Made by a program: the position numbers and the translations under genes. Below the pieces are notes generated by a model. It was not told where the DNA came from. It saw only the letters and a program-made list of their open reading frames with translations, and made no database searches. DNA of 64,000 nt from Limnobacter thiooxidans (GTDB lineage: Bacteria; Pseudomonadota; Gammaproteobacteria; Burkholderiales; Burkholderiaceae_B): positions 1,984,001-2,048,000 of the forward strand of contig NZ_AP028947.1 in NCBI RefSeq assembly GCF_036323495.1, written 5' to 3'. Each line of letters opens with the position of its first letter. The stretch's first letter is position 1. This document shows positions 922 through 12,534 of the stretch, in pieces.

Positions 922-940
922 CAACGCCAAACTACAATTT

Positions 941-1032
941 TTTTACGATTCGTTCGTTCGAATCTGATCTCAAGCCACAAAAACAAAACCCCGCCGACAT
1001 GTGCATGAGGGCGGGGTTTTGTTTTTGGTGGA
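941..1032. repeat. Direct repeat copy 1, left side of the caspase operon
   Basis: A segment of about 92 bp that is nearly the same as 12358-12451. Both copies hold the inverted motif GATTCG/CGAATC (slightly altered in copy 2), an A-rich spacer, and the same GC-rich hairpin with loop sequence around ACATGTGCATG. Both end with TGG(T/C)GGA; in copy 2 that is the 3' end of tRNA-Ser. The two copies are in the same orientation and bracket the whole 11-kb operon. Confidence 0.7.
989..1016. terminator. Bidirectional intrinsic terminator
   Basis: The 7-bp stem CCCCGCC/GGCGGGG is followed by TTTTGTTTTT on the plus strand, and the A-rich stretch before it gives an equivalent T tract on the minus strand. 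It can therefore end both the aminotransferase (plus) and the caspase operon (minus). It is part of the direct repeat at 941-1032. Confidence 0.8.
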
Positions 1033-1060: not shown

Positions 1061-2866
1061 TCAGCGAACCTCACGAAGGGTTTTGATAACAGCGCTGTAC
1101 GGCGCATCACACCATTCCCCGCGCGTTGCACGCGAAGGTTTCTGGCATGACTCATCCTGCTCGAATGCAGTTCTGGACAAGCCAAGGTTAAATGCCTGTC
1201 CACCCAATGGGGAAATGGCGACTTCGAAAAAAGGATCAGTCATCTTTCCAACCAGTTGCGCGATGTCTCGGGGATATCTGGACGACACAACCACCAATTG
1301 GCTCTGCCCCTCGGGCCCGCCAGCCACCAGTGGCCAGTCAGCCCTCGGCAATGAAAATGCCGTACCCGCCTTGATCAAATTGTCTTTATCCAGAGCGTTT
1401 GGAAATAACAAGGTAAGACCCTTGCGATCAGAGGATCGATAAAAGATGTACAGGTAACTGTCATCTTTGACAGAAATTTTCCCGGACAGTGGAACGCCAT
1501 TGATTTTGACCTGCGCAGGTAAGTCCACAATGAGACCGGTGGTCTTTCTGGATCCAGCGAGAACATTGCGCAATGCCTCATCCAGATTGTTGGGGACCGA
1601 CATGCCCTTTTTTGCAAGCCCTTGCTGCAGGTTGAAAGATTTCGCAGATTCAGTGCTTTCCCCAGCAGTCACCAAAGATGAATTGGCCACCAAACCTTGT
1701 TTCACTTCAGGCGTTAAATTGGCCCGCATCGGAGCAGTGGACAAATCACCGGTCAAGGTCATGTTTTGTGGCTTGTAAATCTTGCTGTTCTGCACACGCG
1801 CGTTGATGGCTTGCTGAGTACATGCACGCAATTCCTCAACCGAGCTTTTGTTGTCAGCCTTGGCCATACAGCGCAGCCAGTTTGATGTGGCAAGCCCCCC
1901 TGTTCTGGCATCGTCCAGTGATATCTCATCAGGTCTGGCTGCACCGGCATAAACCCATTCCTTGCCAGTGGCTCTTAATGCGGGCTGTTCAGAAAGCATG
2001 TTGACGATCTCGCTGCAGTTGGACGCAGCACCACTTTTTGCGAAAAACTTTGGGCGTAATTCAGGTTCGCCGATGGCGCGCGTGGTGGAGAGGCCACCTG
2101 AATGGCAGGCATCAATGAACACAAAAAGGTTGCCTGTTTTCTGGGAAATTGGCCGAAGCAAATCAGCCATCTCAGTAGCAGTCAACAACTGACCCTCATA
2201 AGTGATCAAGCCTTCGATGCAACGCCCTGCTGCAACTGGATCGTCTACCCGGCCACCGTGTCCACTGTAATAGATCAGCACGGGCTCCTCAGGTTGAACA
2301 TCAAGCGCCAGTTGTGTCAGCAATGCCGACAGGGCTGTTTTGTTCAAGGCCTGGTCACGCTGTACGCTGACACGGTCGGCTGAAATGCCCATCATCTGTG
2401 CCATTGAAGTGGCACTCACCATGTCCACAGGCACACCAGGCAAGCTCGGAATACCTGAATTAGGGGCATAGTTTGAGAGCCCCAGCACCAATGCCCTGCC
2501 CGTGCCTGGCGGAATCGGTGCAAGCACAGCCTTGCCCGCAGCAGTGGTATTCGATGAATCAGCAGGGGCTTGCGCCGCTGCAATTTCCTCGTCAGTCATT
2601 TTCTCGACCAAGGCACGAAGCAGCCAGCCTTCCTGTCCGTTCCAGCGCACTTTCCACCAGAATGGTCCTTTACTTTGCAGGTATTCGGTTTTCTCACCCG
2701 CCGGCACAGACACCACTACAGCACTTTGTACCTCCGGTGTCGCACGCAAGTCAGCACCGAAAAACTTCACCACGCCATACACAGTATCCTCGCTGCTGTG
2801 GACCGGCCCACCGAGGAAGGCGGCGAACACCAGCAACAAAGAAATGATCGACTTAGGGTTTTTCAT
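1061..2866 (-). CDS. Exported SH3-caspase (C14) protein with DUF4384-like C-terminus
   Basis: 601 residues from the chosen start; the upstream in-frame Met at 2887 would put seven residues ahead of the signal peptide. Residues 1-24 form a signal peptide, so the protein is probably periplasmic. Residues 28-88 look like a bacterial SH3 domain (LRATP, WWKVRW, GWLL). Residues 122-370 are a caspase-fold peptidase with both catalytic residues visible: His203 in YYSGHGG and Cys254 in IDACHSGG. Around 450-545 a DUF4384-like region contains YLYIFYRSSD and LLFPN. It is the last gene of the operon and overlaps the upstream WD40-caspase by 14 bp. Members of this family cleave after basic residues, but whether this one is active is inference. 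Confidence 0.85.
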   Translation of the reverse strand: MKNPKSIISLLLVFAAFLGGPVHSSEDTVYGVVKFFGADLRATPEVQSAVVVSVPAGEKTEYLQSKGPFWWKVRWNGQEGWLLRALVEKMTDEEIAAAQAPADSSNTTAAGKAVLAPIPPGTGRALVLGLSNYAPNSGIPSLPGVPVDMVSATSMAQMMGISADRVSVQRDQALNKTALSALLTQLALDVQPEEPVLIYYSGHGGRVDDPVAAGRCIEGLITYEGQLLTATEMADLLRPISQKTGNLFVFIDACHSGGLSTTRAIGEPELRPKFFAKSGAASNCSEIVNMLSEQPALRATGKEWVYAGAARPDEISLDDARTGGLATSNWLRCMAKADNKSSVEELRACTQQAINARVQNSKIYKPQNMTLTGDLSTAPMRANLTPEVKQGLVANSSLVTAGESTESAKSFNLQQGLAKKGMSVPNNLDEALRNVLAGSRKTTGLIVDLPAQVKINGVPLSGKISVKDDSYLYIFYRSSDRKGLTLLFPNALDKDNLIKAGTAFSLPRADWPLVAGGPEGQSQLVVVSSRYPRDIAQLVGKMTDPFFEVAISPLGGQAFNLGLSRTAFEQDESCQKPSRATRGEWCDAPYSAVIKTLREVR

Positions 2867-5800
2867 AAACAGGGATTTCCTTTCCAAAATTCATCATCAT
2901 TGGTTCCTGCTGGTGCCGCAAGATTCTGGCAAGACGGGATGTTTCCTGCTTTGCAATGGCACCCCACTCCGAAGTGTCAATCTGACCATCCTGATTCTGA
3001 TCTGTTTCCGGGTTCTGGATTGATTTCAACAACACATGGGTATACAAACCGTTGCCCTGATACCCGTCCAAAGCTTGCTGGGTCTCGCCTGCTGACGCAA
3101 AAAGATGCAGACCCGAATTGCGGGCCAACACCGAGAAACGGGCATCAAACAAACCACGAAGCCATCCATTCAATCCGCCAGCGTGGCAAGTATCCAGAAT
3201 CAGCAACTGCCGGGCAGCCTTGATCCGGGTAGCAGCGTTGAGTATTTCATCCGAGGAGAACAACTGGCCTGGACTGGTGCTGCCATTCCAGTCATGAAGC
3301 ACCATGCCGTATTGGGCCAAGTCATCGAGCGTGCCATGGCTTGCAACAAACCAGACAAACACATCTTCTGAACTTGACTGTTCTGCGACCCGATTCAGCG
3401 CCTGCTGCAAACCGTCTCGAGTGGCTTGCACATCGATCAGCTCAATTGTTTCCGTGCGTGCAGCTTTCACGGCCCGGGCCAAAGGCAAAGCCAACTCGCG
3501 CGAAAAACTCTGAGCATCTTTGACTGCGAAATTAAGATTTGGCGCCTGCGGATTGGCCTTGAACTGGTCAATCCCCACCGACAGTAGCCACAATGTGGGT
3601 GCCTTGGCTTTTGCCGGATTGAAGAGTGAAACACGAGTTGGCCGACTGCTCAAGTCACCCGCAGCGTTCAGCGCCATCACGGCTATTTCATTCTCTCCCG
3701 GCGCCAGGTCAACGCGTGTTTCGATCGCCAGTTGTTGTACTTCATTGGCCTGACGCACCTTCTCGACCTGCTTTTTGCTGGCCAACTTGAGCGCACGCAG
3801 AGAACCGGCCACGGCCACATCAGGTTTGACCGTTGAAAGATTTGCCATGCCTGGAGTTGGCGCCCGTTGATTGACGACCTGATCGATGGCGGTGTTTTCA
3901 CGCGCTAGCAATTTGCCATTCAACAACAGACGAACTTCTCCGATACCTCCACCTGAATTTTGCAAATCCAGTTTGATCTCAGCCGTACTTTGATCACCCT
4001 CGCTCGTCCCACTCAAATTCACTCGGGGAGGTGGTCGTTTGATCGCGTCTTCAAGCGTAACACTTACCAGATCAGCAATTGGCAAGCCCTGCAAACCCCG
4101 CTGTACGATGTCCGGTCTGTAGAACACATCATAAAACTGTCCAATTCGATAGACCTGCTGGTTGACACGAACGTTGATCCACTCATCCCCTTTGGGAGAG
4201 GCTGCAAAATATCCCTCATTGGAAATACTCAACCACTCCTGCTCATCAAATTGAAAAAGGTTGAGGCGGGTCTTTCCACTTGCTGGATCCAGGATGCGAA
4301 CACGGCCATCATCGCTGGCTGCCACCAGGAATTTCTGATCGTCAGACCACGCCCACAACGATGGAAATGGTTCACTCAACGCGCCGGACCATTTGAGTTT
4401 CATCAGGGATACGTTTGACCAATCCAGCCGTGCCGTCTGCCCGGCCGTATTCGATACCGCCAATTGATTGCCATCGGCTGACACACTGAGTGCCGTGACA
4501 GGCCGATCTGCCCCGCGCCACACCACCTGTTGGGTCAACGCCTTTCGACCAATTTGCGCGACAAGCAATCGACTGTCGCCACCAAAAACCGCGCCACGCC
4601 CCACCGAATGGACCGCCATTTGATACGCCGTCACCCCTTTGGGTAAATTCCATTGACCCAACAACTGGCCTGATTGGGTATCGAATGCAATGGCGCGCCC
4701 CTGGTGGTTGTCTGAATACAATGCGCCTTGAACGCTGATGCTCACCCACACGATCTTCCCATCCGGGCTTACTGCCATTGCAATCGCCTTTCCGGGCAAT
4801 GCCCATTCGCCAGGCAGCTGTCGGGTGTTCGACTTTTTCATCAACACATGAACACGGTGATCGCGCTGCGCAGGGTCAGAATTCAAGCGGGTGGATGCCA
4901 CTGCTGTCACCGTTCCCTCCCGATTTTGACTCGTTAAATCAGCGGCGTAAGATTCATCACCGCCCTGTACCATGTCATCGGTGACTCGGTCAGGTTCACC
5001 CTGATTGCGTTCATAACTGAAGTGTTGAAAACTTGTCTCACCGCTGCTCAAAAGACTGGCTTCACGAATCAACCTGCTTTTCAGCGGCGACACAGTTACA
5101 GTATTCGGAAACAGAGGAGCAAGGGACACAAAGCCAGAGCCACCTTTTGACGTGGACAACCAACTTGTCGGGCCGAGTTGCCAATTCACTGTGGATTTCA
5201 TTTGTCCATCAGTCAAATCCCAGATGGACACGGTTTGACGATGTTTGCGAAATCCTTTAGGACCATACAAAACCGACAGACGAGCCAATTGTTCGCGGGT
5301 GAAATTCGACTCACCACCAAAATCTTGAATCAGTTGGGCAGCCTCATAGTATTCAGCGGCTTTTTTATTGCGGGGGCGGCCCGCTGAAACTGCCAGATTC
5401 TTGCCCTGCCCATCAAGCGCCACTTGAAGTGCTGGCGCACCGCGCCCCTCAAGGACACGCGTGGTTTTCAATTCTGCCGAAAGAGAAGGCAAGGCATACA
5501 AGCGCACAGCTTCATCCCATGCCGCAACAGCCAACGACTGCCCATCTCGCGAAAACTTCAACTGGGCCCTGATGAACGGCGTACCCAAAGCGTTGCGCTC
5601 ATTGATCGCAGTTGACAACAATTGGCCTGTTTCAACAGACCACAGCCTTAACTCTTCCTGCCCTGCCAATGCACCTGCACTGCCAGTCATCAGTTTCTGC
5701 AAATCGATTTGAGCAAGGGTTCCCAATGTTTTGCCATCTGGCGAAAAAGCAATCGACACAGGGCTGCCAGAATGACCTTCAAGGCTGCGAATGACTGTCC

Positions 5801-6551
5801 CCGATGCTGCGTCAAGCAACACGATGGCGCTACTCTTGCTCCCCATGAAGGTTCCCAGGCCCACCGCGATGCGTGCACCATCGGGTGATACTGCAAGGCT
5901 TGACACTTCCTCACCCAAAGAAGCAAGCAGACGAGGCTTTCCGCTTTCTGGCACTTCGAGCACTTGCCCCAGTCGATTACCAACCCACAAACTGGATGAA
6001 TGTTCTGTTCCCGCCAACTGACTCGCATTTCCAAACTGCACAGCTGGAAGGGGCACTGTACGTACAGCTTTTGATCGCCCTGCTTGCCAGAACTTCAAGC
6101 CGTCACTTTCGCCCAAGGTCCACACGCCGTCTTCCTTGACCAACATGCCGACAATCAACCCGGTGTGACCAGTCCACACCTGTCGCAAGGAACCGCTTGA
6201 ATAGTCAGTTTCCACGAGCTGCTGCCCGTCCTTTGCCCCCCCTGTGGAATACACTCGCTGGCCATCACGTGAAAAGGCTGCATTCAGGCAAAGACCCAAG
6301 TGACGATACAAGCCCCTGTATTGCAGGCCGCTCTCGGCATCCCAACCAATCACTGAACCACTTCCATCACAACTGACCAAGCGTTGTCCGTTCGGTGAAT
6401 AATCCACGGCGGTTGTTGACATGGTGTGACCAGTTTGAACAAATACCTCTGCCTGCTCAGTGTCAGCAAAAGCGTAACTGCTCAAGGTCAGGATTGAACC
6501 CAGAAGAAACGGAGGCACCCACAGGCACTTGGCGAAACTCATCAAACCCAT
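2853..6551 (-). CDS. Exported WD40-repeat protein with C-terminal caspase domain and EF-hand loop
   Basis: 1232 residues from the ATG at 6551; the longer frame to 6989 would run into the upstream gene and lacks a signal peptide at its start. Residues 1-29 are a signal peptide ending in AFA. Roughly residues 40-900 hold many WD40-type blades (for example VDYSPNGQRLVS, IAFSPDGKTLG, LSVSADGNQLAVS, WDLTDG), suggesting one or two beta-propellers. Residues 985-1232 are a caspase domain with His1072 (ASHGT) and Cys1122 (DTCHAGG). Near residues 1184-1195, DQNQDGQIDTSE matches the canonical EF-hand calcium loop at every ligand position. The operon position suggests that the propeller senses or scaffolds and the caspase acts in the periplasm; that is inference. 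Confidence 0.85.
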   Translation of the reverse strand: MGLMSFAKCLWVPPFLLGSILTLSSYAFADTEQAEVFVQTGHTMSTTAVDYSPNGQRLVSCDGSGSVIGWDAESGLQYRGLYRHLGLCLNAAFSRDGQRVYSTGGAKDGQQLVETDYSSGSLRQVWTGHTGLIVGMLVKEDGVWTLGESDGLKFWQAGRSKAVRTVPLPAVQFGNASQLAGTEHSSSLWVGNRLGQVLEVPESGKPRLLASLGEEVSSLAVSPDGARIAVGLGTFMGSKSSAIVLLDAASGTVIRSLEGHSGSPVSIAFSPDGKTLGTLAQIDLQKLMTGSAGALAGQEELRLWSVETGQLLSTAINERNALGTPFIRAQLKFSRDGQSLAVAAWDEAVRLYALPSLSAELKTTRVLEGRGAPALQVALDGQGKNLAVSAGRPRNKKAAEYYEAAQLIQDFGGESNFTREQLARLSVLYGPKGFRKHRQTVSIWDLTDGQMKSTVNWQLGPTSWLSTSKGGSGFVSLAPLFPNTVTVSPLKSRLIREASLLSSGETSFQHFSYERNQGEPDRVTDDMVQGGDESYAADLTSQNREGTVTAVASTRLNSDPAQRDHRVHVLMKKSNTRQLPGEWALPGKAIAMAVSPDGKIVWVSISVQGALYSDNHQGRAIAFDTQSGQLLGQWNLPKGVTAYQMAVHSVGRGAVFGGDSRLLVAQIGRKALTQQVVWRGADRPVTALSVSADGNQLAVSNTAGQTARLDWSNVSLMKLKWSGALSEPFPSLWAWSDDQKFLVAASDDGRVRILDPASGKTRLNLFQFDEQEWLSISNEGYFAASPKGDEWINVRVNQQVYRIGQFYDVFYRPDIVQRGLQGLPIADLVSVTLEDAIKRPPPRVNLSGTSEGDQSTAEIKLDLQNSGGGIGEVRLLLNGKLLARENTAIDQVVNQRAPTPGMANLSTVKPDVAVAGSLRALKLASKKQVEKVRQANEVQQLAIETRVDLAPGENEIAVMALNAAGDLSSRPTRVSLFNPAKAKAPTLWLLSVGIDQFKANPQAPNLNFAVKDAQSFSRELALPLARAVKAARTETIELIDVQATRDGLQQALNRVAEQSSSEDVFVWFVASHGTLDDLAQYGMVLHDWNGSTSPGQLFSSDEILNAATRIKAARQLLILDTCHAGGLNGWLRGLFDARFSVLARNSGLHLFASAGETQQALDGYQGNGLYTHVLLKSIQNPETDQNQDGQIDTSEWGAIAKQETSRLARILRHQQEPMMMNFGKEIPVYEKP

Positions 6552-6559
6552 CACATCGC

Positions 6560-7216
6560 TCACTTGACAGTAGATTGTTGAACCCAGCGATCGACTGGCC
6601 AATAACGGAGCAACTGCACCACCGCCACCAGTCCACCCAGGGCTGTTGTTATGAAGACCGCCCGCAATACCTGCCATGGCGAGGTAATTGTAAATGCGGC
6701 GTCCAATGCCAGCACAACGGAACGGTCCGGGTTTACAAGCACACACATTGCCCCCACGCACAGTGGCCCGCTGAGAAGAATGACTGCACAACTCAGGCTG
6801 GTTTGGCAGCACGCCTTTATCCAACCGATACCGGGATAATCGGCAACCCCCAGCCCCACACCGTCCAGATAATCGCGCATTCTGGCATCGGTTTGCTCGT
6901 TGAAATACGGAAAAAAATGCAAGCGCGTGACCGCGAAAATCGCAATCATGGTCAACACTGGGGTCAGGACCCCCATCCATGCCGACCACAAACCTTGCGT
7001 GGCCAAATTAACGGCACTGTCAACAAGCCCGGGCATGACCTGAAAAAGCAACAAGCCACACAACACTGTGCAAGCCAACATGCCTGGCCAAACAACCGCC
7101 AAATGTTGCCCATACGCTCGACTGACCTGGACTTGTACCACGGGACGCTTTAACCGATGCCGTGCCAGCCAGAGCATCGCGAGCCGTTCGGACTGTGCTC
7201 GAAGTAAGCGTCTCAT
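6560..7216 (-). CDS. Small multi-pass membrane protein of the caspase operon
   Basis: 218 residues from the ATG at 7216, which overlaps the upstream stop as ATGA; an in-frame ATG at 7225 is the alternative. The N-terminus is basic (RRLLRAQ, RHRLKR) and is followed by about four hydrophobic segments, near residues 45-65, 80-100, 130-155 and 185-205. I do not recognise a named family, and no catalytic motif is visible. The tight packing between a secreted FecR-like protein and the WD40-caspase suggests an inner-membrane part of the same system. Confidence 0.7.
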   Translation of the reverse strand: MRRLLRAQSERLAMLWLARHRLKRPVVQVQVSRAYGQHLAVVWPGMLACTVLCGLLLFQVMPGLVDSAVNLATQGLWSAWMGVLTPVLTMIAIFAVTRLHFFPYFNEQTDARMRDYLDGVGLGVADYPGIGWIKACCQTSLSCAVILLSGPLCVGAMCVLVNPDRSVVLALDAAFTITSPWQVLRAVFITTALGGLVAVVQLLRYWPVDRWVQQSTVK

Positions 7217-8037
7217 CGCACCCATGCCTGTAAACCTTCATCCTGTGGACGGCTTGCCGCCAGCCCTTTCCATATCAGCCACGCATCGTAAGAAAAACCC
7301 GCCTGATCAAGTGCTGCAGCAGCTTTTACCTGCTGTGCAACAGCACCCCGAACGGGCCACTCAAGCCCTCGGCGACGCGCATCGTTTTTGGCCAGTACTT
7401 CAAAAGAGGCTTCAGCCAATACCGAGTCCTTTGTTTCATCGCGAAGCGACCAGCGATAATTGCCAACGGGTAGAGGTTTACTCAAAATCAATTGCCGTGC
7501 ATCCACAACCTTGCTCATTATTAATTTGCCACTGCCCGCTTCAGTCAACACGACTTTGACTGGGCGATCGTGCTCCCAATACAGGGTGGGCGGGTTCGCC
7601 AGCACCGGGGTATCGAAAGGCCCCAACATCTTGGCAGATGATTCACCGCGCATGACCACAGCGCCCAAGGCCATCTTCTCCTTATGTGGGGCCTCCATTG
7701 CACTCAAGCCCGCTGTATTGGCTGCCTTCATCAACTTCGCTGGCTTTTTACCCTGTAGAAGTTCAATTGAACGGTCTTGAATCACATAACGCCCTGGCCC
7801 TTCCAGCAACCACTCCTGAGAAGCCCTCAGGGAGACCAGCTGCACTTTCCCTTTGCCATCGAGCTGAATCTCTGTTTGCTCGGGCAGATAATCCAGAATA
7901 CTGAGCGACTTGTTGGCAGCCCCAGGAATCTTGACAGAGGCGCCCCCTTGCACGTCCACCACGACAGCCACACTTGCGGCCCAGGTCGACTGAAAGAACA
8001 TTGACAAGGAAACCACAATCAAGACCCGTTGTTTCAT
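7213..8037 (-). CDS. Secreted FecR-like domain protein
   Basis: 274 residues from the ATG at 8037; upstream in-frame codons to 8133 reach back into the CHASE2 gene and lack a signal peptide. Residues 1-21 are a signal peptide (hydrophobic run, cleavage near TWAA). The following region has short beta-strand-like stretches (VVVDVQGGASV, LPEQTEIQLDGKGKVQLV, LEGPGRYVI) typical of the FecR-like periplasmic fold, in which a surface polyanion or polymer is often bound. The C-terminal half has no recognised domain. CHASE2 proteins are often encoded beside FecR-domain proteins, which supports the assignment. The stop overlaps the next start by 4 bp. Confidence 0.65.
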   Translation of the reverse strand: MKQRVLIVVSLSMFFQSTWAASVAVVVDVQGGASVKIPGAANKSLSILDYLPEQTEIQLDGKGKVQLVSLRASQEWLLEGPGRYVIQDRSIELLQGKKPAKLMKAANTAGLSAMEAPHKEKMALGAVVMRGESSAKMLGPFDTPVLANPPTLYWEHDRPVKVVLTEAGSGKLIMSKVVDARQLILSKPLPVGNYRWSLRDETKDSVLAEASFEVLAKNDARRRGLEWPVRGAVAQQVKAAAALDQAGFSYDAWLIWKGLAASRPQDEGLQAWVR

Positions 8038-8048
8038 CAAGTTCACCT

Positions 8049-9830
8049 TCAGTTCAAAATCAATTGATAGGATTTGCCGCCAGTGTCGAGAGCCATTCCA
8101 TGTCCCTTCAAGGCAGCAGCAGTTTGTGGGCACACACGAATGGAAGTCCCCTCAGACAGCGCCGCACTGTCTCGCGCAAGGGTACGGGCTTGCTCGATTG
8201 CCGGGCCAATCACCACAAATGGATTGGCATCTCCGAGCGCAGCGCGGCCAGCGACCAATTCACCACTTGCTATTCCTATTTGAAGGCAATACACCAAGCC
8301 GTCTTGTTGCAGCAGTTGCAGCCAAGTATGCGATTCGCGCCGGATGAACAGGGCAGCCTCCAGGGCTGCCCGTTCCGGATCATCCAGCTTGAGAGGCGTT
8401 CCAAACCACGCCAAAACCTCGTCGTCCTGTAAACGGTCGACCATGCCACCACTTTTATTGACTGCAATTTTGATGGCTTCATAGTATTTGGAGAAACCTG
8501 ACAACCTTACAGACGGGGTAGAGGCCAACAAGCCGGGGGCATGAAGTCGACATGCAAGCACCACGGCATGTACCTGTTCTGTTTTCAAACCAACATCCGT
8601 GTCCGCGGGTTGTTCATGCACCAATCTTTGCAGGGCAGCCTTGCTCAAATGTCCCGTGAACGCCTCCATCAGGCGCTTGCGATGATGCTCAATTCTCAAC
8701 CAGTCCACACCTTGCCGCGTCACGAAGGCAGTTTTTGCCACCAGCAAAATGCCCGCGGGCATGAGAAGAATGCCCAACCACAGCAGGTAAAGACTGAACA
8801 AGGGCAACAAGACAAACAGGCTCCAGTAGACCAGGCTTTTCTGAAAACCGTGAGGCGCAAACCACCACAGACAGGCCAAAGCGATCAAGACACCTTCAAT
8901 CCAGAAAGGCACTTGTTGAATCGGCCCGTGATTGATCAAGGTACGAAGCAACTGTGCATGGGCCATGACCCCCGGCACGCGGCGATTCTCTGGCTCCAGA
9001 GCTTGAAGGGCAACAGGCACCCTCAAACGATCTTCCAAAGGCAAAACCAGGCCCACCAGCACCGGCTTGCCACCCAGCAATTCGCGCAGCTTCCCGTGCT
9101 CGCCTTGCTTGTAAAGATCAATGATGCGGTGCATGGGGATGGGCTCAATCATACCGCCAGCCCGAAAGTCAACGAGCCCAAGGCCGCGATCAGACACGCC
9201 CAGGGCCTGCGCCATTTTCGAAGCCAGGGCGCTGGAAGAACCCGAGTCGGCGCAACCGTCAGCAAGATGCCGACGCAACACGGAATCTTCATCAAGACAC
9301 AGCACTGCTGAAGCAAATCGATCCTCACCGATCAATGCACGAAACCCGGCAAAAATTGGCCGGGGTCGGTTGGTATCATCCAGGGTTTGGGCAAAAAAAA
9401 CAGGTACTTCTGAACGCACCTGGAGCAAGCCGCGCATCAATTCACGATCAATACCTGGGACAACTGCTTCATAGCTTCGGTCGGGAAGCACAATGTCCAT
9501 CCCGACGACACTGGGCTTGGCCAAAACAAAGGCCTGAAGCAGATCAGCAAAGTGTGGATGCCAAAGCGCGAACGGCTCGGAAAACTGTCGAAAGGTTTCC
9601 TCATCAATACCAACCACAACTACATCATTGGCCACGGTACTGGGCGCAAAGGTGCGAATCAGTCCGACCCCGCGATCGTAAAGTTTCCATTCTGCAGCCT
9701 GAAAAGAGGTGAAGCTCTGCAGGGCAAACCCAAACAGGCAAAGACCAGCAAACACCAGCACATTGACCAGCGAGCCGCCCTGAATCAGCCGAAGCTGAAT
9801 GCGATCGATGAATCGCAACAGCCAGTTCAT
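8049..9830 (-). CDS. CHASE2 sensor with degenerate adenylate/guanylate cyclase domain
   Basis: 593 residues. One membrane helix (residues 22-40) leads into an extracytoplasmic CHASE2 domain (about 43-300; VVVVGIDEETFRQF, VVGMDIVLPDRS). Two or three helices follow (309-370), then a cytoplasmic class III cyclase-like domain (about 418-593). Key cyclase residues are altered: where the first metal-binding Asp should lie the sequence reads VVLACRLHA (Arg428), and the substrate-binding NLAxR motif is replaced by IEQART. The Asp pair near 469-470 and the GIASGELVAG stretch remain. It therefore probably senses or signals by interaction rather than by making cAMP. The start overlaps the upstream lipoprotein stop by 4 bp. 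Confidence 0.85.
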   Translation of the reverse strand: MNWLLRFIDRIQLRLIQGGSLVNVLVFAGLCLFGFALQSFTSFQAAEWKLYDRGVGLIRTFAPSTVANDVVVVGIDEETFRQFSEPFALWHPHFADLLQAFVLAKPSVVGMDIVLPDRSYEAVVPGIDRELMRGLLQVRSEVPVFFAQTLDDTNRPRPIFAGFRALIGEDRFASAVLCLDEDSVLRRHLADGCADSGSSSALASKMAQALGVSDRGLGLVDFRAGGMIEPIPMHRIIDLYKQGEHGKLRELLGGKPVLVGLVLPLEDRLRVPVALQALEPENRRVPGVMAHAQLLRTLINHGPIQQVPFWIEGVLIALACLWWFAPHGFQKSLVYWSLFVLLPLFSLYLLWLGILLMPAGILLVAKTAFVTRQGVDWLRIEHHRKRLMEAFTGHLSKAALQRLVHEQPADTDVGLKTEQVHAVVLACRLHAPGLLASTPSVRLSGFSKYYEAIKIAVNKSGGMVDRLQDDEVLAWFGTPLKLDDPERAALEAALFIRRESHTWLQLLQQDGLVYCLQIGIASGELVAGRAALGDANPFVVIGPAIEQARTLARDSAALSEGTSIRVCPQTAAALKGHGMALDTGGKSYQLILN

Positions 9831-10648
9831 GGTTGTGCCCTGCCCTGCAATTGAAGCAAGGCAGCCTTTGCGCGGCGGGCCTGTTCCTCAAACTGACTGG
9901 CCTGCGCGGGCTGTTTCTGCAGCTTGGCAATGGACGCCAGAAGCTCCAGATCCATCACGATCCGGTCGGGCAGACCAAGGCTGCGATCCAACATCAGCGC
10001 CTCTTCAGCAGATTGACGCGCCAGATCATACTGACCTTCTTTCATTTGAACTACGGCAAACAGTCGCCCAAGATTTGCGCGTTCAACCCCTTGGCCTGAC
10101 TCCTGGGAAGCAAGCGCCAACACACCAGACTGAATATGAAGCCGGGCTTCGGCCATGCGCCCCTGCACAATGGCCAATCGGGCCTGCAGCCCATGAAGCG
10201 CTGCAGAGAACCGGCACCGGTTGCCACACAAAGCATCTGCCTGACGCAGATCACTGCCCGCCTTGTCCAAAGTTTCGGGAGTTTGCAAATGGATTCCACC
10301 CCGTCGTGCCAACAATTCAATCTGAATGTCTATTGGCAGTTCTTCAGCCCGCGATAGCGAAACATTCAAGTTCGCCAACGCTTCTGTTCGACGGCCAGAA
10401 TCGACCAGAGCACGACTCAAACCCACGACCGCACGACCAAAACCGACGGGGTCTGCCAGTGCGTCATAACGCAACACGGCTTGGTTCCAGTGTTCTGCAG
10501 CGCGCTCATACTGACCCCGACTTTGGGCTTGAGTAGCCATGTTTTCGGCCTGCCTGGCTTTCAACAACACTGGATTTTCGGGCAGCGGAGAAGCTGCGCA
10601 GGCCACCAGGGCGACACACACACCTGCCATCAAGAACACCGCCCTCAT
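9827..10648 (-). CDS. TPR-like lipoprotein
   Basis: 273 residues with a lipoprotein signal peptide: a hydrophobic run followed by the lipobox LVAC (Cys17). The rest is rich in Ala, Leu and Arg with helix-pair periodicity (for example AENMATQAQSRGQYERAAEHWNQAVLRYDAL and later ARQSAEEALMLDRSLGLP), as in tetratricopeptide repeats. It is therefore probably a membrane-tethered scaffold facing the periplasm. It overlaps the genes on both sides by 4 bp, so translation is likely coupled with the MCE protein and the CHASE2 sensor. Confidence 0.75.
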   Translation of the reverse strand: MRAVFLMAGVCVALVACAASPLPENPVLLKARQAENMATQAQSRGQYERAAEHWNQAVLRYDALADPVGFGRAVVGLSRALVDSGRRTEALANLNVSLSRAEELPIDIQIELLARRGGIHLQTPETLDKAGSDLRQADALCGNRCRFSAALHGLQARLAIVQGRMAEARLHIQSGVLALASQESGQGVERANLGRLFAVVQMKEGQYDLARQSAEEALMLDRSLGLPDRIVMDLELLASIAKLQKQPAQASQFEEQARRAKAALLQLQGRAQP

Positions 10649-11562
10649 GGCGCTGTACCTTCAAAACTTTCCAGGGGAACGGACGATGCCGAAGGCACGC
10701 TGAGCAACGACGAAAACGGCCAGCGTTGCCTGATGCCATCACTCATGTCTTGCGCATCATTGAGCAGTTGCTGACCTGAATCGAGAGCCGGTGGCAGCTT
10801 GCGCTGGATGTCCTGCACAATGCTGTTCACGGCTTCGCTGCTTTGCCGGGCATTGAGCAGGATCGAGTTGAGCTGTTCAAACATCACCGAGCGATTGGCG
10901 GACATGTCCTGAACCATGACATTCACTGCCATGCTTGTCCGTTCGATATTCTTGGCTGTGGTTTGAGCACTGCTGGCAATTTGCAGGCCTGTGCTTTGCA
11001 AAGCGGGCAAGCCTTCTGCCAGCCCGGCAGTTACGCGGTCAACATTTTCCAAAATGGGTTCCACCTTGGCCAAGGTGGTGTTCATCTGCTCCATCAATCG
11101 CTTGACCGTGGCCAGCAGATCATCGATTTCCTGCCCCTCTTCAAAAGTCAATTGATGCCCTTGTGCCAGGCGGACAGGTTGGGCGGGATTGGGATAAAGA
11201 TCAATGTGCTTTGAAGCAACCGGCGTATCACGGGCCATACGAGCTGTAGTGTCAATGCTCAGGAGAGGAAGGCGTTGTGACTCCAACTGAAGCTCGGCCT
11301 GCACGGTGAGGTCATCCTGCAAACGAATGGCCGCTACCTCTCCAATCTGAAATCCTCGCAAGCGCACAGGCGCGCCCACATCGAGACCCGATGCACCGGG
11401 AAGCACAAGATACACGCGAGTGCTGGGGGTGAAGATTCCCTGTCTATAGGCGGCCAACGCAAGCAGGCCAAGCAGCAGAAACAACGTGAGTAACCAAAGC
11501 GAGCGAGCCGTTCGCTTGATCTGCTGATCACGGACTGACAGTGGGGAGGGCACTGAACTCAT
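10645..11562 (-). CDS. MCE (MlaD-like) domain protein
   Basis: 305 residues: a cytoplasmic tail, one membrane helix at about 21-40, an MCE domain at about 46-127 (VYLVLPGASGLDVGAPVRLRGFQIG), and a long helical or coiled-coil region at about 145-260. MCE proteins form hexameric rings that carry lipids between membranes, normally with an MlaE permease and MlaF ATPase. Here no permease gene is present, and the only ATPase-like partner upstream lacks its Walker A half. Its stop overlaps the start of the lipoprotein gene. Lipid binding is known for the family; its link to caspase proteins is inference. Confidence 0.85.
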   Translation of the reverse strand: MSSVPSPLSVRDQQIKRTARSLWLLTLFLLLGLLALAAYRQGIFTPSTRVYLVLPGASGLDVGAPVRLRGFQIGEVAAIRLQDDLTVQAELQLESQRLPLLSIDTTARMARDTPVASKHIDLYPNPAQPVRLAQGHQLTFEEGQEIDDLLATVKRLMEQMNTTLAKVEPILENVDRVTAGLAEGLPALQSTGLQIASSAQTTAKNIERTSMAVNVMVQDMSANRSVMFEQLNSILLNARQSSEAVNSIVQDIQRKLPPALDSGQQLLNDAQDMSDGIRQRWPFSSLLSVPSASSVPLESFEGTAP

Positions 11563-11978
11563 GGGTTTGCATCCACCACGGCAGCGTTATCTGTAGTGCC
11601 CAAGGTCAAACGACGCCAGGGATAACTCCATTGATAAGCGTTCTTGAACTGTTCAATCGTCACATCACAATCACCGGGCCAATCTGATTCAAGAATCAGC
11701 AGGTGTACTGGTGCACTTAAAATGCTGCGCCCCAGCCAAATCATCAACAACTGGCTCGGTGAAGCGTCTTCTGGCCAAGAGCTTTCAAAAAGGGACAAAT
11801 CGAAGTGACAACCGCAACGCTCAAACAAACGCCCCACTTCACGCAATGTGGCCTCATCGATCGCGGTATCTCCCAGCAGTGAATTTTCAAGCAGGAGGTT
11901 TTGAAGAAGACTCAGATCAGGGAACAAACCGGGGCGAGCCCGATGAACAGCAACACTTCCGTTTTCCATGACTAGCAC
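11559..11978 (-). CDS. ABC-ATPase-like fragment (MlaF-like remnant), first gene of the operon
   Basis: 139 residues starting at a GTG preceded by the SD-like AAGGGGG; an ATG lies at 11969. An in-frame stop just before the GTG shows that the frame cannot extend upstream. PGLFPDLSLLQNLLL resembles the sequence after the Q-loop of ABC ATPases. PSQLLMIWLGRSILSAPVHLLILESD resembles the signature-to-Walker B part, with the LSGGQ signature eroded and the Walker B acidic pair changed to ES. The Walker A half is absent, so ATP hydrolysis is unlikely. It could be a decayed MlaF or a repurposed adaptor; its intact frame and 4-bp overlap with the MCE gene favour a retained function. Confidence 0.55.
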   Translation of the reverse strand: MLVMENGSVAVHRARPGLFPDLSLLQNLLLENSLLGDTAIDEATLREVGRLFERCGCHFDLSLFESSWPEDASPSQLLMIWLGRSILSAPVHLLILESDWPGDCDVTIEQFKNAYQWSYPWRRLTLGTTDNAAVVDANP

Positions 11979-12357
11979 GGTGCCCCCTTAATTGACGGCG
12001 TTTCTTAAATTCGAATGCTGCTCGTTTTTTACACCCTGTCAATGTAAGGCAAATTACTAAACATGCATAGATCGGATGACCTTGTATGGCTCAGATTTTC
12101 TACAATTTTAGTTGAAGGATATGAATCGCTCTGAATCAGAGATTGGCCAAAAAGTTGCGCCACGCTTTTTCAGTTTTATTGGCGGCCTTGCGTCAAACTG
12201 ACTGGAGTTAAGCGAGCGAACTGGTCCCGAAAACGTCGCTATTGATTCGGCTCAAGTATGAAAAAAAGAAATAGTTGGTGGAGACCATGAGATTGTTATC
12301 GCACCTGCCGGTGCTCCCTCGTTTCGTTCGCTGGCGCAAACTCCACCGAACTGAAAT
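11979..12357. other. Intergenic region upstream of the caspase operon
   Basis: No convincing gene. On the minus strand a TTGACA (12037-12042) could be a -35 box for the operon, but the spaced -10 is weak. An inverted repeat, AGTTGGTGGAG at 12273-12283 against CTCCACCGAACT at 12341-12352, encloses about 57 bp; it resembles a tRNA acceptor stem but has no T-arm or anticodon arm. Confidence 0.4.
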
Positions 12358-12451
12358 TTTTACGATCCGTTCGTTCGAATCTCCTCACAGGTCGCAAAAA
12401 CAAAAACCCGCCGACATGTGCATGAGGGCGGGTTTCAATGTTTTTGGCGGA
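12358..12451. repeat. Direct repeat copy 2, touching the 3' end of tRNA-Ser
   Basis: Nearly the same sequence as 941-1032 in the same orientation. Its last seven bases are the 3' terminus of tRNA-Ser. It contains the tRNA terminator hairpin. Together the two copies define an interval holding exactly the eight-gene caspase operon. Confidence 0.7.
12407..12432 (-). terminator. Terminator of tRNA-Ser
   Basis: Stem CCCGCC/GGCGGG with the same loop as the terminator at 989-1016. On the minus strand it is followed by a T-rich run (GTTTTTGTTTTTG). It lies 13 bp beyond the 3' end of tRNA-Ser. Confidence 0.75.
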
Positions 12452-12534
12452 AGCTGTGAGATTCGAACTCACGGAGGACTCACATCCTCGGCAGTTTTCA
12501 AGACTGCTGGTTTAAACCGCTCACCCAAGCTTCC
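12445..12534 (-). tRNA. tRNA-Ser (UGA anticodon)
   Basis: 90 nt including an encoded CCA. The acceptor stem GGAAGCT/AGCTTCC carries discriminator G. The anticodon loop CTTGAAA gives UGA, which reads UCA codons. The long variable arm is typical of serine tRNAs, and the T-arm holds GTTCGAATC. A TATAAT (complement at 12544-12549) lies ten bases upstream. Confidence 0.95.

Follow-up and report, generated by a model that had tools for sequence, protein, structure and literature searches.

What kind of system joins an MCE-type protein to a CHASE2 receptor and two caspase-fold proteins with export-like N-termini? The question is posed by eight open reading frames (ORFs) on the minus strand, running from 11978 to 1061 of a 64-kb stretch of the Limnobacter thiooxidans genome (the window, by which we mean the whole stretch analysed). 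The eight genes form a real, tight operon, which, judged by its gene content, is a combination of three recurring modules: module A, with the genes pseudo-ATPase-MCE-TPR-CHASE2-MlaE; module B, with CHASE2-FecR-like-caspase/CHAT; and module C, a pair of caspase-fold genes. We consider it possible, if a little short of probable, that the operon encodes one envelope complex, in which a periplasm-facing sensor on an MCE platform passes a conformational signal to caspases as the output. In the order of transcription, the genes are:

11559..11978, minus strand: pseudo-ATPase of 139 amino acids with a GTG start, the remnant of a MlaF-like ABC (ATP-binding cassette) nucleotide-binding domain without Walker A (hhalign, Foldseek)
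10645..11562, minus strand: MCE (MlaD-family) protein with one N-terminal hydrophobic segment (PF02470, 48 bits)
9827..10648, minus strand: TPR lipoprotein, lipobox ..ALVAC/A read by eye (TPR_12, 31.5 bits; alignment A6)
8049..9830, minus strand: CHASE2 receptor with a degenerate class III cyclase domain in its C-terminal third (PF05226, 79.5 bits; matches to PDB cyclases)
7213..8037, minus strand: FecR-like/MtxA-like protein with an N-terminal signal-like segment (no Pfam match; profile A14 leads to MtxA)
6560..7225, minus strand: diverged MlaE-family permease with four hydrophobic segments (PF02405 match of an ortholog, L043; hhalign)
2853..6551, minus strand: WD40-propeller caspase with a signal-like N-terminus (ORF 2853-6989, likely start 6551; WD40 and Peptidase_C14)
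1061..2866, minus strand: SH3_3-caspase-DUF4384 protein with a signal-like N-terminus and an ATG at 2866 (ORF to 2887, TTG 2887 possible; Pfam SH3_3, Peptidase_C14 and DUF4384)

With the most likely starts, three of the seven junctions are 4-bp overlaps (11559/11562, 10645/10648, 9827/9830), two are overlaps of 13 and 14 bp (7213/7225, 2853/2866), and two are gaps, of 11 nt (ATG 8037 after 8049) and 8 nt (ATG 6551 after 6560). A preliminary description of this DNA had counted 4-bp overlaps at five of the seven junctions, which is too many; its eight minus-strand genes stand, and Pfam models bear out the MCE, TPR, CHASE2 and two caspase-fold identities that it proposed. Export was judged from the N-termini, by hydropathy and by eye. 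The hydropathy scan finds an N-terminal hydrophobic segment or several segments in six of the eight proteins, and one internal hydrophobic stretch in the pseudo-ATPase. The N-terminus of the WD40-caspase is signal-like by eye but falls under the hydropathy cut-off of 1.6. Membrane or export signals in seven of the eight, as earlier proposed, are therefore plausible, with the WD40-caspase counted by eye only. A consensus scan reveals no minus-strand promoter-like site between the tRNA-Ser that lies upstream and the first operon gene; the scan is uninformative, since it finds 8 such sites in the whole stretch and 5.4 in shuffles. No model in Pfam, NCBIfam or PADLOC names the whole eight-gene set.

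The strongest evidence that the genes belong together comes from another family. A search of genome contigs with the MCE profile yields two loci, in Pseudomethylobacillus aquaticus (L043) and Methylobacillus flagellatus L1B (L044), both Methylophilaceae, in which seven of the eight genes occur in identical order and strand. Identities (tblastn) are 39% for the pseudo-ATPase, 45-46% for the MCE protein, 36% for the TPR lipoprotein, 49% for CHASE2, 38-39% for the FecR-like protein, 25% for the MlaE-like protein and 44% for the WD40-caspase; for the SH3-caspase neither genome gives a match at 1e-3 there. Since order and strand of seven genes are kept in two other genera, the gene set is more than a product of chance. 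The ratio of nonsynonymous to synonymous substitution rates (dN/dS) between the two loci is 0.257 for the pseudo-ATPase, 0.135 for MCE, 0.21 for TPR, 0.082 for CHASE2, 0.238 for FecR-like, 0.054 for MlaE-like and 0.176 for the WD40-caspase. By this measure the seven shared genes are under purifying selection, and the values of 0.05-0.26 indicate that all of them, the degenerate ones included, are maintained. The proposal of one co-inherited set of MCE, CHASE2, FecR-like protein and export-like caspases thus holds in two other genera, and the outcome named beforehand as speaking against it, homologues scattered with no conserved neighbourhood, was looked for and did not occur. In a sample of 120 Methylophilaceae genomes, CHASE2 matches at 1e-20 are found in three, two at 51% and one at 32% identity. 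Relatives of the WD40-caspase form 13 clusters in the protein collection (39-95% identity, near-full coverage), below which the matches with at least 80% coverage reach 31% identity at most. Four of the 13 clusters pair with a CHASE2 relative on a contig equal in length and source (lengths 16377, 57584, 63521, 13646), and an MCE relative shares the length and source of the first of these; no such CHASE2 pairing is visible for the other nine.

The lipid-transporter part of the operon is recognisable and degenerate. The protein earlier described as an ATPase-like fragment is indeed related to ABC proteins; it is no plain fragment, being a conserved ABC-type domain without Walker A. Its profile matches the 184-amino-acid gene at the same position in loci L108 and L109 (hhalign E 8.4e-6, probability 83%), which in turn matches ABC_tran at 0.0013, below the ABC_tran cut-off. 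All 50 listed Foldseek matches are ABC proteins (best E 6.5e-3, none below 1e-3), and the local profile of the pseudo-ATPase family also finds ordinary ABC ATPases, such as the host's own MlaF at 8.5e-5. In the window the N-terminal part is absent and Walker A with it; Walker A is likewise found in none of 25 pseudo-ATPases from the family f24 discussed below, whereas the canonical MlaF of the host has it. This MlaF belongs to a second MCE locus of the host, together with MlaE and MlaD. The "membrane protein" of the preliminary description does have membrane segments; its identity, a diverged MlaE permease, had been overlooked. The window's own protein has no Pfam match and no match to the local MlaE profile. 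The L043 ortholog reaches 37 bits with PF02405 (cut-off 22.5), and the three-row MlaE-like profile A5 matches true MlaE (hhalign E 2e-5, probability 77%); the fold model is poor and unusable (predicted local distance difference test, pLDDT, 55.6). STAS and MlaC models match none of the eight operon proteins. Since the pseudo-ATPase is without Walker A, it is unlikely that the MCE part would drive lipid pumping by an ATPase of its own.

A parallel loss is seen in the receptor. The CHASE2 domain named earlier is present, and a cyclase-like C-terminus had escaped notice: PDB cyclases match the C-terminal part of the CHASE2 profile A3, built from a mixture of degenerate and intact relatives. The active site of class III cyclases consists of two metal-binding Asp residues plus an Asn and an Arg. 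The window's protein has R/D/E/T at the D/D/N/R positions, so that one of four is kept. Among the relatives sampled at 40-51% identity, none of 20 has the full catalytic set (single residues are left in some), and all seven sampled at 30-38% identity keep D, D, N and R. Since the cyclase residues are lost, signalling by cyclic AMP (cAMP) through this protein is unlikely. In a CHASE2 tree (quick method, one support value), the four rows from union loci, which combine MCE, CHASE2 and caspase genes, form one set (98) within a pseudo-cyclase clade (19 rows, 100), itself within a 27-row clade (97) that includes the window's row and holds the four Mla-linked rows L107-L110 and four context-unknown proteins. 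At L110 (1237-6486), CHASE2 and MlaE genes lie near a gene for a Lnb_N/DUF7840 protein.

The FecR-like protein keeps its name for convenience: the signal-like N-terminus noted earlier is there, and Pfam and NCBIfam give no FecR match. The seven-row profile A14 has MtxA (4z29) as its top PDB sequence (E 0.0091), and a three-row profile finds none at E up to 1. Sigma-factor models of Pfam and NCBIfam match none of the eight operon genes.

Both proteases retain their His/Cys motifs. PF00656 is found in both, accompanied by WD40 in one and by SH3_3 and DUF4384 in the other (Pfam). His1072 and Cys1122 of the WD40-caspase are invariant in 13 of 13 aligned sequences, the window's included, and the SH3-caspase carries the motifs YYSGHGG and DACHSGG, read by eye.

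Each of the three modules recurs in other loci; the locus profiles used for these counts have 3-6 rows each, some of them from loci that are themselves counted, and hence some counted loci match by construction. Module A is found in the family f24, where CHASE2 matches at 1e-40 occur in 30 of 130 genomes (31 listed matches, all read). The order pseudo-ATPase-MCE-TPR-CHASE2 occurs at 25 of the 31 loci, with MlaE after CHASE2 in 21 of them; the other six are on short contigs (L179, L217, L218), have MlaE only (L207) or are CHASE2-FecR loci (L211, L216). A ThrS motif, mostly with PheS/PheT motifs, lies near 18 of the 26 loci checked, which suggests an old core-chromosome address for module A in this family.

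Module B is seen at the level of the order. CHASE2 matches at 1e-20 occur in 26 of 399 genomes sampled, own included. Apart from those in G000 (the window's own genome) and G034, 32 matches are listed, of which 29 were read and three weak partial ones left out. A FecR-like gene together with C14 or CHAT lies within 6.5 kb at 20 of the 29 loci (a few of these matches are weak or on the opposite strand). The remaining nine comprise four with the FecR-like gene only, four that are Mla- or MlaE-linked without FecR-like gene or caspase, and one that is the union itself (G345). Within 6.5 kb of CHASE2 (327 kb in total) we count 31 profile matches for FecR-like, 9 for CHAT, 14 for C14, 4 for MCE and 5 for MlaE, with overlapping frames counted separately; beyond 6.5 kb in the same loci (150 kb) there is one match for CHAT and none for the other four. 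CHASE2 cyclases of another type from the host's own family (L034-L040, n=7) have no FecR-like, C14 or CHAT neighbour. A general link between CHASE2, FecR-like proteins and caspase/CHAT proteases is supported. A locus in G051 (L029:391-9994) encodes a two-partner secretion (TPS) pair, made up of a ShlB-type transporter and a 1723-amino-acid TPS-domain protein ending in a caspase domain, followed by FecR-like and CHASE2 cyclase genes; here a caspase would be the passenger of the TPS pair, with a CHASE2 sensor as its neighbour.

Module C is represented by relatives of the SH3-caspase in 17 other genomes of the 399. Another C14/CHAT gene is found in 14 of the 14 neighbourhoods read (stretches up to about 20 kb), only one of which, L160, adjoins CHASE2-FecR.

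The cyclase residues differ with the partner genes. All four of D, D, N and R are retained by 31 of 33 loci linked to FecR and by 6 of 7 controls. Of the 28 scorable loci with a Mla or MlaE link, three retain them (L193, L194, L207; L219 is unscorable), and of the two union loci neither does. The count omits L043 (near-identical to L134), L041, and four loci at which neither a FecR-like nor a Mla partner was found (L032, L033, L139, L218).

A second union of MCE, CHASE2 and caspase exists in a different arrangement. In three genomes of one f24 genus (L193, L194, L197), C14 genes lie beside pseudo-ATPase-MCE-TPR-CHASE2, with neither MlaE nor a FecR-like gene by the local profiles. C14-DUF4384, which resembles the SH3-caspase of the window, is found in L193 and L197, and a C14 protein with FGE-sulfatase domains in L194. 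In L193 (2607-5042) one caspase-PDZ-Peptidase_S41 protein is encoded directly upstream of the pseudo-ATPase. A subtilase gene directly follows CHASE2 in L197 (6852-9398).

How would such parts work together? The pseudo-ATPase, the MlaE-like permease and the MCE protein may form a non-hydrolysing platform in the inner membrane by which envelope lipid is read or held. The state of the periplasm or the outer membrane would be sensed by CHASE2 together with the TPR and FecR-like proteins. On the cytoplasmic side the dead cyclase domain would contact the dead ATPase, so that the signal would be conformational rather than cAMP. The output would be caspase-type proteolysis in the periplasm, with the WD40 propeller and the SH3 protein as the route of activation or release. 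In most Mla-linked loci the two cytoplasmic activities are lost side by side, which suggests that the dead domains may bind each other. The observed basis is the presence, order and co-conservation of the genes, their constraint, the lost ATPase and cyclase motifs and the intact protease motifs; from these we infer the mechanism, while the complex, its location and the protease activity are predictions. A wider claim, which we hold to be somewhat unlikely, is that the operon represents a new class of envelope signalling, in which an MCE/MlaE assembly with a by-design dead ATPase would act as transducer for a dead-cyclase CHASE2 receptor: the state of lipid or outer membrane would be sensed mechanically through the inner membrane, with exported caspases as the response.

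Several findings weigh against the proposed complex. At 28 of the 31 f24 CHASE2 loci, no caspase-fold gene lies in the stretch read (several are cut by contig ends), and the Mla-type operons of this family have no FecR-like gene by the local profile. L193, L194 and L207 keep their cyclase residues while Mla- or MlaE-linked, and L193 and L194 are two of the three loci of the second union, which speaks against a simple rule of residue loss. One WD40-caspase relative, P0135, has no C14 match at 1e-3, though both catalytic residues are kept. The window's MlaE-like protein and pseudo-ATPase are themselves recognised only via relatives, at the hhalign probabilities given above. Finally, a strict dependence of the caspases on the receptor has against it the genome G158 of the same genus, which keeps both caspases and whose best CHASE2 relative has an identity of at most 23%.

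This last genome leads to the site at which the operon is located, about which the preliminary description was silent as regards its flanking repeats:

940..1018, no strand: left 79-bp direct repeat with a hairpin, island end (repeat search)
12357..12435, no strand: right 79-bp direct repeat, directly downstream of tRNA-Ser (repeat search)
12445..12534, minus strand: tRNA-Ser(TGA), hotspot (tRNA call)

The two repeats are 89% identical and enclose the eight-gene operon and no other recognised gene; their hairpin core has no further copy elsewhere in the window. A probe of tRNA-Ser and repeat matches in 16 of 16 genomes of the genus, own included, and the survey of the site covers 13 of the 15 other genomes (all but G153 and G154) with 17 stretches. 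Cargo-free sites exist, since two repeat matches (49-57 of 79 bp) lie only about 104 bp apart beside tRNA-Ser in G066 and G147. The characters of an integrative island are present, namely direct repeats 3' of a tRNA and relatives without cargo; that G066 and G147 already hold two repeat copies though cargo-free bears on the idea that insertion made the repeats, as does the single copy seen in G159. In G159 about 6.4 kb with an Arm-DNA-bind_3/Phage_integrase gene lie between tRNA-Ser and one repeat (a second copy was sought beside its tRNA and not found), and in G152 such a gene lies beside the repeat, on another contig than its tRNA. The varied cargo and integrases in G159 and G152 make the tRNA-Ser site a hotspot; the window's own island has no integrase. 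Besides its integrase, the site in G159 holds a primase-like gene; G152 has its integrase there, and G112 a gene for a Na+/H+ antiporter (L059, L064, L066).

Operon genes occur in one of the 17 stretches, L061 (G158), which has the WD40-caspase at 88% and the SH3-caspase at 97% identity. Just upstream of these two retained genes (L061:1-793) are transposase-like ORFs, read by eye, which we take to be IS21-like. The synonymous divergence (dS) between G000 and G158 is 0.118 for the SH3-caspase (window 1061-2866 against L061:4710-6515), compared to 0.515 for the WD40-caspase, 0.75 for an aminotransferase and 0.49 for a DUF3422 gene; the low value for the SH3-caspase perhaps reflects a separate recent exchange. 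A CHASE2 search of the family sample has matches in six other genomes of the genus, none an ortholog by identity; of the genomes first met via the tRNA-Ser probe it covers G158.

The same observations can be read in other ways. The operon may serve MCE-type lipid transport without an ATPase of its own, or with MlaF borrowed from the chromosome, the caspases and CHASE2 regulating or maturing the transport. Pqi and Yeb/Let systems are of the MCE type and work without their own ATPase; the second MCE locus of the host could supply a MlaF with Walker A, and MCE, TPR lipoprotein and MlaE are the steadiest partners of CHASE2 in f24, mostly without caspases. We nevertheless regard this as unlikely: the pseudo-ATPase is kept under constraint and not simply dropped, and the window's MlaE-like gene has diverged strongly. 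A reading in which the caspases form an exported protease pair of their own, with nothing but the operon in common with a Mla-CHASE2 module, is, in our estimate, distinctly unlikely, even though it accounts for the caspase pair retained alone in G158, for its contrasting dS values, for the absence of the SH3-caspase from the two Methylophilaceae genomes L043 and L044, and for the SH3-caspase neighbourhoods, of which all 14 have another C14/CHAT gene and a single one CHASE2-FecR. What counts against it is the adjacency of CHASE2, FecR-like and caspase/CHAT genes, far above the background of the same loci, and the union of MCE, CHASE2 and caspase in two arrangements.

The island setting invites a further explanation, a mobile island for defence or competition whose caspases would kill the cell or a rival after a breach of the envelope, such as phage entry. 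The operon genes are indeed alone between the direct repeats, at a tRNA-Ser site that carries phage-type integrases in two relatives, and the generic caspase model of PADLOC matches both proteases; PADLOC otherwise returns weak PycC matches only. Caspase defence systems are known as cytoplasmic, whereas the N-termini here are export-like, and the ThrS motif near most of the f24 loci checked (18 of 26) points to a core-chromosome address. We therefore hold defence or competition to be very improbable, and continue with the envelope complex.

Its closest known counterparts include the Mla/MCE transporters (MlaFEDB), which likewise combine a MlaD-type MCE protein, a MlaE-family permease and an ABC-type cytoplasmic subunit in one operon. 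The window differs from them by an ABC subunit without Walker A (as in 25 of 25 f24 relatives), by the lack of a STAS or MlaC match, and by a CHASE2 receptor and proteases inside the operon. The single parts belong to known families, and the clustering of CHASE2, FecR and TPR is not new, since CHASE2 cyclases clustered with FecR-domain and TPR genes have been published for Campylobacterota, where a single pathway was proposed (PMC9239204); in the portion of that paper available to us, the clusters include an adenylate cyclase and a phosphodiesterase, and MCE and caspase, both present in the window, are unmentioned. Going by the accessible parts of the respective papers, the CHASE2 cyclases CyaD1, CyaD2 and CyaK of S. 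meliloti have the outer partner NsrA (PMC13001267), and the MtxA gene adjoins a CHASE2 cyclase gene in Magnetospirillum and magnetotactic bacteria (PMC4439547). CHASE2 and a cyclase fold are common to these cases and the window, as is, for MtxA, a secreted FecR/MtxA-like neighbour; the window differs in its lost cyclase residues and in its partners, which are MCE, MlaE-like protein and caspases. The BiofilmReg operon of Burkholderia resembles it in having an exported FecR-domain protein beside a CHASE2 receptor, which there is a histidine kinase with a response regulator (PMC5192318); the words caspase, CHAT and TPR are absent from the main text as available.

On the side of the proteases, the excerpts at hand describe the fusion of CHASE2 to a caspase in Trichodesmium (PMC2853523), caspase architectures of cyanobacteria that include CHASE2 (PMC3501461, PMC5756287), a proposed model of cell death in which CHASE2 and WD40 receptors are the trigger (PMC7475262), a WD40/CHASE2 gene cluster in one cyanobacterium (PMC5587647) and TRADD-N systems in which CHASE2 is a variable module (PMC8195603). 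As far as these excerpts go, prokaryotic caspase homologues and the cyanobacterial WD40-caspases have the p20 His/Cys and WD40 or DUF4384 in common with those of the window (PMC2853523, PMC3501461, PMC7475262), which differ by their export-like N-termini and by an operon shared with MCE and a pseudo-cyclase CHASE2 protein. A full-text search of the open-licence literature in PubMed Central (PMC) returned no paper combining MCE/Mla with CHASE2, no published name for the eight-gene set, and none for the widespread CHASE2-FecR-like-caspase/CHAT arrangement.

The window's operon is a concrete entry point to this arrangement. It joins three questions that are seldom considered together: how MCE systems act without a working ATPase, how CHASE2 proteins signal when they lack an enzyme, and which targets the exported caspases of bacteria cut. 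The parallel loss of ATPase and cyclase sites, with both proteins staying in place, is a testable hint that the dead domains may communicate with each other.

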